Part shown: positions 6,251-49,227 of the stretch, one piece after another
Layout: every line of letters starts with the position of its first letter
How positions within the stretch are numbered: position 1 is the first letter of the stretch
Assembly (NCBI GenBank): GCA_016208495.1
Contig: JACQXX010000070.1
Coordinates: forward strand, 248,001 to 312,000
DNA: 64,000 bases
Source of the DNA: Acidobacteriota bacterium
Lineage (GTDB): Bacteria > Acidobacteriota > Blastocatellia > Chloracidobacteriales > Chloracidobacteriaceae
Reading direction: 5' to 3'
Translations under genes and position numbers: made by a program
The notes under the pieces: generated by a model
What the model was told of the DNA's origin: nothing
Database searches by the model: none
The model's input: the letters and a program-made list of their open reading frames with translations, nothing else

Positions 6251-7555
6251 TTAGGCGTAAATCCCACGCAACGTCAGGTCACGGGCCATGCGTTCAAGAC
6301 CCAGCATATAGGCACCCATGCGCAAATTCACACCATGTTTTTCAGACATATTCACCACATGGTGGAAGGCCCCATTCACCATATCAGTCAGGCGTTCTTT
6401 AACGACATCTTTGCGCCAGGTGAAGCCCATTCGGTTTTGGACCCATTCAAAATAGCGAATGCCCGCGCCACCGCTTTCACCCAGAATGGCTGGAATCACA
6501 AACACCCCCCGGTAATCCAGGATTGGTTCAGCCATACCTGTCGTCGCGCCATAGGCAATTTCACACAGAATCCGGCATTTGGTTTTACGAGCCACTTCAG
6601 CCGTGATCTGTTGTTGGCGGAAGGCTGGGACCAGCACGTCGCAATCCATGGTGAGCAATTCTTCGTCGTTGATGGCATCACCTTCTGGATATCCTTCGAG
6701 CGTTCCTTTCTGGCCAAAATAATAGAGCACATCTGGGATATTGAGGCCATTGGGGTTATAGACACCGCCGCCCAAATCAGCAATTCCAGTAATGACATAG
6801 CCGGCTTCATACAGGAACTGGGCGGCTGATCCACCGCGCCGACCAGCCCCCTGGATATTGACGCGGGTTTTGTCAGGCGACATTCCCAGCTTTTTGGCTG
6901 ACTCGTTGATCATACAGGTGGCCCCATAGCCAATGGCTTCACGTGAAAAGTGGGAGCCTCCCATTTCAAAGGGTTTGCCAGTCACAATTGACCGCACGGT
7001 ATGGCGGGCGTGCATCGAGTAGGTATCCATGATCCAGGCCATGACCTGCTGGTCAGTACTCAGGTCTGGCGCAAGGATATCGCGTTCCGTGCCAAGGATA
7101 TCAAGCATTTCAGAGATGTAGCGGCGAGTCATGCGTTCGAGTTCCGATTGGGATAATTCTTTCGGGTCACAGAGAATGCCTCCCATGGATCCGCCAAACG
7201 GGACATCCACCACCGCACAGGTATAGGTTGACCACAACGCCAGGGCGCGCATTTCGTCAAGGGTAATGTCTGGGCGATATCGCAGCCCACCCTGCATTGG
7301 ACCGCTGGCAATGTGGTGTTGGACACGATAGCTCTCAAAGACACGAATTTCACCGTTATCCATGTGAACTGGAAGGTTTACCACAAACTCGCGGCCTGGA
7401 AACCGCAGTAACTTTCGCAGGTTCTGATCCAGGTTCAGTTTTTCGGCGGCCATTTCAAAACGCCCAATGAGCGTTTCAGTCAGGCCCATTTCACCGATAA
7501 GAATTTGAGATCGTTCGTTGGTGGCTGAATGGGGGTTATTCAGGAGGTCAGACAT
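6251..7555 (-). CDS. Glu/Leu/Phe/Val dehydrogenase-family protein lacking catalytic lysines
   Basis: The 434-aa protein is full length for hexameric GDH and aligns throughout with its dimerisation and Rossmann domains. The key positions differ, however. The substrate lysine of GPxKGG is Gln88 (GPMQGGLRY). The lysine of MTWK is Thr112 (WSTYT). The catalytic lysine of GGAKGG is Met124 (GGSMGG). The NAD loop GxGNVG reads GAGRRGG, and AEGAN reads CEIAYG. The catalytic aspartate appears kept (APD, residue 164). It is therefore probably not an active dehydrogenase. A regulatory subunit like GdhA of the Thermus thermophilus GdhA/GdhB complex is one possibility. No catalytic partner gene is adjacent. 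Confidence 0.85.
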   Translation of the reverse strand: MSDLLNNPHSATNERSQILIGEMGLTETLIGRFEMAAEKLNLDQNLRKLLRFPGREFVVNLPVHMDNGEIRVFESYRVQHHIASGPMQGGLRYRPDITLDEMRALALWSTYTCAVVDVPFGGSMGGILCDPKELSQSELERMTRRYISEMLDILGTERDILAPDLSTDQQVMAWIMDTYSMHARHTVRSIVTGKPFEMGGSHFSREAIGYGATCMINESAKKLGMSPDKTRVNIQGAGRRGGSAAQFLYEAGYVITGIADLGGGVYNPNGLNIPDVLYYFGQKGTLEGYPEGDAINDEELLTMDCDVLVPAFRQQQITAEVARKTKCRILCEIAYGATTGMAEPILDYRGVFVIPAILGESGGAGIRYFEWVQNRMGFTWRKDVVKERLTDMVNGAFHHVVNMSEKHGVNLRMGAYMLGLERMARDLTLRGIYA

Positions 7556-7872: not shown

Positions 7873-8327
7873 TTCATCCTATCTTCGGCGTGGAGACCCG
7901 GTCCTTGCTGGGCCGGGAGGAAACGCCGCTCCTGCTGTGTAAGAAATTGAAATGCAGGTGGGGGAATCGCTCCCACCCGCTCTGCTTGAGGGAAAACTAC
8001 CCTCAGTCATCTCCTCGCGGAGAGTTGTGCGTACCGGTCTGACTGTGACCGCCGACCGGATTCGACGTACTCTCGACCGGATTTGGGAAGGTTTGCCGTG
8101 ACCGGCACTGGCACTGACTCCCATGCCTGTTTAACCGGTCACCGTAGAGCAGCGGACTGAGGCGGCATCCGCAGGTACCTATATATTCTTCCCAATCGGT
8201 TCCCGTGATTTGCACGGGGGTCTGGTCAACTGGAGCTTGAACCGATCTCCCCACACCGACCATCCATCAGGATGGCGTCGTGGCGACACGACTCAAGCTC
8301 GGCCCTTGAGGGCCGAATCTGTTGACT
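7873..8327 (-). ncRNA. 455-bp structured repeat (putative non-coding RNA), copy 1
   Basis: Read on the minus strand the element begins AGTCAACAGATTCGGCCC and ends with a CGGCG...CGCCG hairpin followed by GGATGAA. Copy 2 (48302-48756, plus strand) has the same length and long identical stretches, including GGTTAAACAGGCATGGGAGT or its near match. Where the copies differ, paired arms change together: the hairpins at 7955-7979 and 7987-8005 have different sequences from their counterparts in copy 2 but are still complementary. Frames within it are not conserved as protein. It may be a transposon-associated RNA of the HEARO/omega type; no IscB-like gene is adjacent. Confidence 0.6.
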
Positions 8328-8402
8328 GATTGTGGGACTTCAATTAGGCAAGACTTTGTATCACATCAGTTAGTGTCAGGCAACACGAACAAAAGGGTGA
8401 TG

Positions 8403-48135: not shown

Positions 48136-48301
48136 TAAGGGAAAACCAGCTATCATAGCCTGAAATGCCTGGGAGTACAGCCCAAAGTTTCAGAAGTCTT
48201 GCCCTGGTGGTGGGTGAATTGAACGCACGAATGCGGCTGTGATACTGTCGTGGTGCTTTCGATACAAACACATTCAGTCAACCCACAACAAATTTGGGAC
48301 A

Positions 48302-48756
48302 AGTCAACAGACTCGGCCCTCAAGGGCCGGGCTTGAATCGTGTCGCCACGACGCCATCCTGACGGATGGCCGGTGTGGGGACATTACCTCAAGCTCCGGT
48401 TGACCAGACCCCCGTGCAAATCACGGGAAACGATTGGGAAGAATCGATAGGTACCTGCGGATGCCGCCTCAGTCCGCTGCGCTACGGTGACAGGTTAAAC
48501 AGGCATGGGAGTCAGTGCCAGTGCCGGTCACGGCAAACCTTCCCAAATCCGGTCGAGAGGACGTCGAATCCGGTCGGCGGTCACAGTCAGACCGGTACGC
48601 ATTACCCGACGCAAGTCGGTGCGTGACGTGAATCTTTCACGTCACATCTCAAGCGGGAGGAATTCGTTCTTCCCGCTTGAACACTCACACCCAAGCAGGA
48701 GTGGCGTTTTCTCCCGGCCCTCAAGGACCGGGTCTCCACGCCGAAAAGAGGATGAA
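48302..48756 (+). ncRNA. 455-bp structured repeat (putative non-coding RNA), copy 2
   Basis: It begins AGTCAACAGACTCGGCCC and ends with a CGTTTTCTCCCGG/CCGGGTCTCCACG hairpin, then GGATGAA. It matches copy 1 (7873-8327) over its whole length. Differing hairpins are 48606-48619 (CCGAC/GTCGG), 48623-48645 (GTGACGTGAA/TTCACGTCAC) and 48651-48678 (AAGCGGGA/TCCCGCTT); each replaces a differently sequenced hairpin in copy 1. The gene at 48799 starts 42 bp downstream. Confidence 0.6.
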
Positions 48757-48798
48757 ACCCTGAACCCTGAACCCTGGTTCTTCAAAAAGGTGAGGTTT

Positions 48799-49227
48799 AT
48801 GAACGATCCGAATGACGAAAAAAACACGACGGATCCGACTCCGGATTCTGTGGTCAAAGCCGAATCCCCGAAAAGCTCGGGCAGTGACGAACCCCGACGA
48901 CCCTTTGATGAATTAACTTCATCGGTTCGGGAACTGGCCCAAAAGCTTCCGGATTCCATTGGCCGGATTCCTGGCTCAATCGGGGCCGCAATTCAAAGCG
49001 CGCTCTCTCCCCGCGATCAATCGGTGCTGGTTTATATCAATGACGATCTGTCAAAATCGCTGGATATGCTGGTGACGGCTGAGATTTTCGGCAGTCGCTC
49101 TGAAGCGGCTGAGTTTCTGATGAAGGAAGGGCTCAAAGCACAACATGAGCTCTTTGAGCGGATCCAGGACAAAGTACAGCAAATCGAACGACTGAAATCA
49201 GAACTGAAAACCATCGTGCCGCACTAA
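48799..49227 (+). CDS. Ribbon-helix-helix-like protein of unknown function
   Basis: ATG 48799 has AAGGTGAGG just upstream, giving 142 aa. The first 45 residues are acidic and polar (NDPNDEKNTTDPTPDS). Residues about 75-115 (DQSVLVYINDDLSKSLDMLV, then GSRSEAAEFLMKEGL) have the strand-helix-helix pattern of ribbon-helix-helix DNA-binding proteins. A coiled coil ends it (IQDKVQQIERLKSELK). It lies between the RNA-like repeat and the microcompartment genes on the same strand. Regulation of those genes is a possibility without direct support. Confidence 0.65.
   Translation: MNDPNDEKNTTDPTPDSVVKAESPKSSGSDEPRRPFDELTSSVRELAQKLPDSIGRIPGSIGAAIQSALSPRDQSVLVYINDDLSKSLDMLVTAEIFGSRSEAAEFLMKEGLKAQHELFERIQDKVQQIERLKSELKTIVPH

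Follow-up and report, generated by a model that had tools for sequence, protein, structure and literature searches.

Orphan HEARO/omega-RNA elements carrying a hairpin block in place of iscB in an Acidobacteriota genome

Insertion of HEARO elements next to ATGA or GTGA was reportedly noted in the 2009 paper on this RNA, and standalone omega-RNAs of IscB systems are said to have been described by Altae-Tran in 2021. The available text of PMC9755519 and PMC12286853 presents the HEARO RNA as the guide RNA of the IscB and IsrB nucleases, and in that of PMC9755519 only a few HEARO nucleases are found together with a TnpA. OgeuIscB is described as requiring a guide of about 16 nt (PMC9640706, in extract), the IsrB of D. 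thermocuniculi as having an NTGA target motif (PMC9581776, in extract), and for TnpB a gene-drive action against element-free copies has been reported (PMC11870625, in extract).

The repeat described here lies within a window of 64,000 nt, the whole stretch of Acidobacteriota DNA that was analysed. An earlier note, made from the letters of the window, had recognised two inverted copies of equal length, and both are present, each of 449 bp without its ATGAA and with 84% identity between them (Table 1); the span first given for the second, 48302-48756, comprises the 449-bp element, one flanking base and ATGAA. The note had likened the repeat to HEARO/omegaRNA and had also considered a new large RNA class. 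Comparison with Rfam, as it had suggested, bore out the likeness, with both copies above the gathering score of 83. The new class was rejected: HEARO spans the first 266 nt of each copy.

Table 1. Positions of the two elements and of associated features in the window
Feature	Position	Strand	Remark
Orphan HEARO/omega-RNA element, copy 2, family A, 449 bp	48303..48751	+	same ends in 16 further elements of this genome
Orphan HEARO/omega-RNA element, copy 1, family B, 449 bp	7878..8326	-	
HEARO (RF02033) match in copy 2, whole model, 98.0 bits	48303..48568	+	
HEARO (RF02033) match in copy 1, whole model, 99.1 bits	8061..8326	-	
Predicted 16-nt guide, copy 2, flank-encoded	48287..48302	+	placed relative to GTCAAC; length of ~16 nt after the available text of PMC9640706
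Predicted 16-nt guide, copy 1, flank-encoded	8327..8342	-	same basis as for copy 2
Hairpin Ha, copy 2	48570..48595	+	paired changes between families
Hairpin H1 (GCAA loop), copy 2	48606..48619	+	paired changes between families
Hairpin H2 (GTGACGTGAA/TTCACGTCAC), copy 2	48623..48645	+	outside the pair count
Hairpin H3, copy 2	48649..48680	+	
Right-end hairpin, copy 2	48703..48742	+	common to iscB elements
ATGAA 3' of the copy 2 right end, predicted target-adjacent motif	48752..48756	+	after all 17 elements
ATGAA 3' of the copy 1 right end	7873..7877	-	
ORF downstream of copy 2, co-directional	48799..49227	+	ATG 47 nt past ATGAA; frame open back to 48505 in the element
Gene downstream of copy 1, co-directional, Glu/Leu/Phe/Val dehydrogenase	6251..7555	-	

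The host genome (8.38 Mb, 177 contigs) holds 17 HEARO elements, of which 14 reach the gathering score and three (L015, L016 and L017) fall just below it. Five carry an intact iscB (L001, L006, L010, L011 and L017; about 1.6 kb, 1,599-1,613 nt including ATGAA) and twelve measure about 450 bp (453-460 nt including ATGAA). A search of the genome for IscB, also suggested by the note, found five iscB genes (PF14239), each directly downstream of one HEARO copy. Thus 5 of the 17 copies are placed upstream of iscB or isrB, and the window copies and ten others are not; we call these twelve orphans because no iscB or isrB lies downstream of them, and as a description the earlier term, orphan guide RNA, is correct. 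That no IscB-like gene lies nearby is true of the window, but the five intact genes occur on other contigs, each adjoining a related RNA.

All five iscB have a stop-free frame, and the resident proteins have an HNH region. One of the five, compared with solved structures, matches several IscBs, including OgeuIscB. Residues D60, E153, H293, D296 and H211 (L022 numbering) are invariant in an alignment of two resident IscBs with five of relatives and, on a reading of the motifs, are the putative RuvC and HNH catalytic positions. A tblastn search of plasmids with an IscB of a related genome (G013) as query matched 72 records.

The orphans share one layout: left end GTCAACAGACTCGG, RNA core, hairpins Ha, H1, H2 and H3, a short spacer, the right-end hairpin and ATGAA. 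The same left and right ends delimit the 12 orphans and the 5 iscB elements, which also have the core and Ha in common; the iscB locus is replaced in the orphans by the hairpin block. At the place of H1, three iscB elements (L006, L010 and L011) have CTCC-NCAA-GGAG, shortly 5' of the iscB start. By their hairpin blocks the orphans divide into family A (L002, L003, L005, L007, L008, L012 and L016), family B (L004 and L015) and family C (L009, L013 and L014). The right-end hairpin, otherwise imperfect, is a perfect palindrome in L013 and in L015, each by a different route, which looks like the outcome of template switching.

On a tree of the RNA core, at least three switches between the orphan and iscB states are needed, and the iscB copies L001 and L017 lie inside a branch of nine orphans, most of whose inner branches are weakly supported. 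The closest pair of orphans is only 95% identical and there is therefore no sign of recent movement. A DNA search with copy 2 through 396 genomes of the phylum, with two candidates scored per genome, gave short matches only, in three other genomes.

Divergence within the orphans is very uneven. As a pairwise mean, the core (columns 94-262) stands at 0.049, the stem (columns 29-93) at 0.144, the left and right ends at 0.096 and 0.093, Ha at 0.174, H1-H3 at 0.353 and the spacer at 0.358; for family A alone it is 0.044 in the core, 0.046 in Ha and 0.200 in the spacer. This pattern suggests that the guide RNA core has been under selection in lineages that have no iscB, or in their master copies.

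Neighbouring hairpins had been noted to vary in sequence yet stay paired, and this is seen throughout the orphans. For Ha, H1 and H3, 97.0% of 300 cells of the 12-orphan alignment are paired and 12 of 25 pairs have changes on both sides; shifting the partners by 1-3 columns reduced pairing to 33-53%. The covariation score of 0.545 exceeds the shuffle mean of 0.322 and was reached by none of 500 shuffles, a test in which related sequences can beat every shuffle, and the 24 further pair types lie below the shuffle mean of 27.6. Since the changes mostly divide the three sequence families, the independent events are few. RNAalifold on all columns gave 133 pairs, 20 with both-sided change. H2 was left outside the pair count because its arms are shifted between families: the hairpin pair quoted in the note, GTGACGTGAA/TTCACGTCAC and TGAGGG/CCCTCA, is present in each copy, but the arms fall in different alignment columns from one family to another.

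The paired changes might instead have arisen by palindrome-correcting mutation (template switching) and not by selection for RNA structure. The two separately perfected right-end palindromes fit such a process, as does the concentration of changes between families; wholesale copying of arms, however, fits Ha and H1 less well, where about 98% of cells are paired and several separate changed pairs have some unchanged ones between them. We consider this origin possible, though on the improbable side, and if right it would leave the HEARO assignment unaltered.

Two other functions were considered for the orphans and rejected. Of the two copies scanned, L014 (family C) has terminator-like sites nearby (4 per 801 bases, shuffle mean 1.0) and window copy 2 has none around it, and intrinsic termination was set aside as the general role of the 3' hairpins. 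A conserved small protein was likewise rejected, the ATGA-ending frames differing in length and sequence between families. The earlier remark that open frames are not preserved agrees with this: the 12 orphans have no conserved frame in common, though in several the downstream gene's frame continues without a stop upstream into the element. In the window, an ATG within the RNA core of copy 2 opens a 240-aa frame (48505-49227) that crosses the hairpins and the right end and continues into the ORF downstream, and similar read-through frames are present in L002, L007 and L016. The downstream ORF itself (48799..49227) gave no Pfam match.

The 16 nt immediately 5' of GTCAAC differ in every case, giving 17 sequences in 17 elements; the variable region that had been noted before AGTCAACAGA is this predicted guide. 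ATGAA directly follows the right end in 17/17 elements, this motif having been included in the pattern that delimits them, which was set after reading the ends, with L006, L011 and L013 read by eye. Its presence after all 17 fits the NTGA reported for IsrB in the available text of PMC9581776, and ATGAA is the predicted target-adjacent motif. At up to one mismatch the two window guides have no other target in the genome. With up to three mismatches the copy 2 guide matches 113 places, against 101 for a reversed-pattern control, and NTGA adjoins 1 of the 22 other guide sites that were read (L198, with 2 mismatches). The copy 1 guide (8327-8342), at up to three mismatches, has an excess of matches, 87 places against 41 for its reversed-pattern control.

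The unexpected part of the finding is where the elements sit. In 9 of the 17, a long ORF begins at the ATG of ATGAA. Eight of these ORFs encode GatB, a patatin-like protein, a HAD hydrolase, an ECF sigma factor, a HisKA/response regulator, an NHL/Big protein, an S41 protease and MerR; the remaining one (L008) has no Pfam match. Because the MerR match starts from residue 1, that of HAD from 7 and that of GatB from 10, the ATG is credible there as the native start. In five of the nine (L001, L002, L007, L013 and L016) the reading frame extends without a stop upstream into the element, so a mechanical ORF finder starts earlier. When the flanks were joined as for an insertion with no target duplication, giving predicted empty sites, a Shine-Dalgarno-like duplex of -4.3 kcal/mol or lower was found at 6/9 start-codon sites, which resemble initiation regions, and at 0/8 of the others.

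As background, the window contains 197 ATGAA sites, at most 12 of them start-like; another 123 lie within ORFs and 62 are intergenic. With sites that would disrupt a gene set aside, at least 9 start-like sites in 17 would have P = 5e-4, a value based on crude ORF calls in one 64-kb window that itself contains two of the elements. The largest downstream ORF is co-directional with the element in 17/17; of the intergenic ATGAA sites of the window, 29/61 have a co-directional next ORF, under a stricter ORF rule. The eight elements off start codons lie 17 (L006), 18 (L015) and 47 (L005, ATG at 48799) nt from the ORF, and in the other five cases 161, 185, 197, 224 and 322 nt. Part of this siting is survival bias, because insertions within genes are lost. 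A search of the open literature found no publication evidently on start-codon siting of IscB elements.

Such siting could also mean that the elements have been co-opted to regulate, as 5' leaders, the host genes behind them, with or without IscB. The co-directional largest ORF at all 17 sites, a position between presumed promoter and start codon at nine and the strongly structured leader are in keeping with this. The host genes, however, are functionally unrelated, and motif and survival bias account for much of the siting; we regard co-option as quite improbable.

The flank also contributes to iscB itself. In four of the five genes (L001, L010, L011 and L017) the frame crosses the right-end hairpin and takes its stop from the TGA in the flanking ATGAA; in L006 it stops earlier. 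L001, L010 and L011 lie at a host start codon, and stop and start overlap there as ATGA, an arrangement typical of genes with translational coupling. In G013, from the same order and another family, two iscB of another type end in a TGA overlapping the downstream start: the overlap is ATGA at L062, where a histidinol dehydrogenase follows, and GTGA at L058, where the next ORF is short and matches Uma2 weakly. Seven iscBs of G001, G004, G005 and G027 have their own stops. The 89 iscB loci on viral contigs, several of which overlap or repeat, comprise 6 that run off the contig, 2 with an early stop and 81 that could be read to the stop; in 5 of these 81 (L103, L104, L109, L131 and L161) the TGA overlaps the start of an ORF of at least 99 codons, and overlap of iscB stop and host start is unsupported as a general rule. 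Ten viral loci (L094-L097, L100, L102, L105, L107, L108 and L110) are relatives of the resident IscB in which the stop lies inside the end hairpin with ATGA or ATGG within about 6 bases, a near variant of the stop-start arrangement.

We tentatively suggest, as a possibility rather than an expectation, that the elements use a start-codon trap. Placed by NTGA, an element would lie between promoter and start codon, the host promoter would drive the guide RNA, ATGA would serve as iscB stop and host start in translational coupling, and the insertion could survive even before housekeeping genes such as gatB. Promoterless orphans would thereby be expressed, would use IscB in trans and would be kept by the cutting of element-free alleles. 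If true, start-codon siting would be a simple reason for motifs of the NTGA form, to which ATG, GTG and TTG starts with a following A conform, and would account for the tolerance and transcription of such insertions.

Among 39 genomes, the host's own included, HEARO is found in 8 and iscB in 7. Within family f2, HEARO and iscB matches number 6 and 1 in G011, 1 and 0 in G012, and 14 and 3 in G013, with the orphan counts uncertain owing to fragmented contigs. Eighteen HEARO loci of relatives were read. Four (L033, L044, L048, which is under the Rfam cut-off, and L053) have a related right end, followed in 4/4 by an ATGAA that opens an ORF of at least 123 codons; one of these ORFs encodes a protein kinase and three have no Pfam match. 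At L033 (G012) a broken iscB remnant is still present. The rest of the 18 had an adjoining iscB, reached a contig end or could not be resolved, apart from a second HEARO element type in G013 (L043, L045 and L047), in which an end hairpin CCCCACTT...AAGTGGGG is followed by ATGATAAA in three copies. The ATGATAAA type opens a long frame only at L045, where the response-regulator start lies further in.

A TnpB element (PF07282, PF01385) in G001 (L069; contig C93, about 105407-105466) has a similar end hairpin and ATGAA, on the other strand. The ends of the HEARO elements are therefore of IS200/IS605 type, and the L069 end suggests that IscB and TnpB elements have a common TnpA target (TTCAT). No TnpA with fitting ends was found in the assembly, 0 of its 9 Y1_Tnp loci matching the elements, and neither these loci nor a right-end search of the assembly revealed an autonomous partner with the same ends. 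Outside HEARO elements the right end gave only 4 three-mismatch matches, against 3 in a reversed-pattern control. In a set of genome contigs, which may omit records of the host genome, the pattern gave two matches (L054 and L055), neither with HEARO and both judged to be chance. Several of the nine Y1_Tnp loci (L023-L031) have repeated GC-rich flanking hairpins and resemble IS200/REP-type elements of other kinds, with no relation to the HEARO ends.

The lack of a partner TnpA with fitting ends and of near-identical copies would suit orphans that are defunct relics of iscB elements, no longer mobile and with an inactive RNA, and the iscB remnant at L033 shows that decay occurs. Such relics would not be expected to form twelve copies with one architecture, with hairpins replacing iscB, an RNA core far better conserved than the spacer and H1-H3, and pairing kept, although copies of a once-selected master could yield part of this shared architecture, conservation and pairing. 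On balance we think it unlikely that the orphans are relics.

We favour as probable the reading that each repeat is a non-autonomous IscB element of IS200/IS605 type, which has its own guide, uses IscB in trans and is kept by the cutting of empty alleles. The element retains both transposon ends and a full omega-RNA, with the hairpin block in place of iscB. Its insertion 5' of an NTGA motif would turn the adjoining flank into the guide of its RNA, which is probably transcribed from the promoter of the gene behind the element. The orphan RNA would then be bound by IscB that the five complete copies supply in trans, and we infer that mobilisation, too, would depend on a TnpA acting in trans. The cut would fall on the element-free allele, in which the guide sequence is directly followed by ATGAA, and repair would restore the element; the occupied site would be spared because the element parts the guide sequence from the motif. 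Removal of element-free copies by IscB is an assumption by analogy with the TnpB report (PMC11870625, in extract). If the reading is true, orphans exceeding the nuclease 12 : 5 in one genome would constitute a natural parasite of an RNA-guided parasite, and would offer a setting in which the use of trans-encoded guides by IscB can be tested.

The orphans resemble the HEARO/IscB omega-RNA elements (RF02033) in their whole-model core, 5' flank guide, NTGA-like motif 3' of the right end and ends, but differ in having no iscB, in the hairpin block H2-H3 that stands instead, and in their number, 12 orphans to 5 iscB copies. With the standalone omega-RNAs reportedly described by Altae-Tran in 2021 they share a guide RNA without its own nuclease gene; the orphans would differ from those RNAs in being mini-elements of uniform build, with the two transposon ends and a hairpin block. 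The TnpB/IS200-IS605 gene drive, as far as the available text of PMC11870625 describes it, is alike in that the guide records the insertion site and the nuclease is reported to cut element-free copies, but there the nuclease is TnpB and not IscB, and guide and nuclease come from one element. The IsrB of D. thermocuniculi, in the available text of PMC9581776, likewise has NTGA beside its target and an omega-RNA of about 300 nt, but it is a nickase without HNH, whereas the IscBs of this genome have an HNH region.
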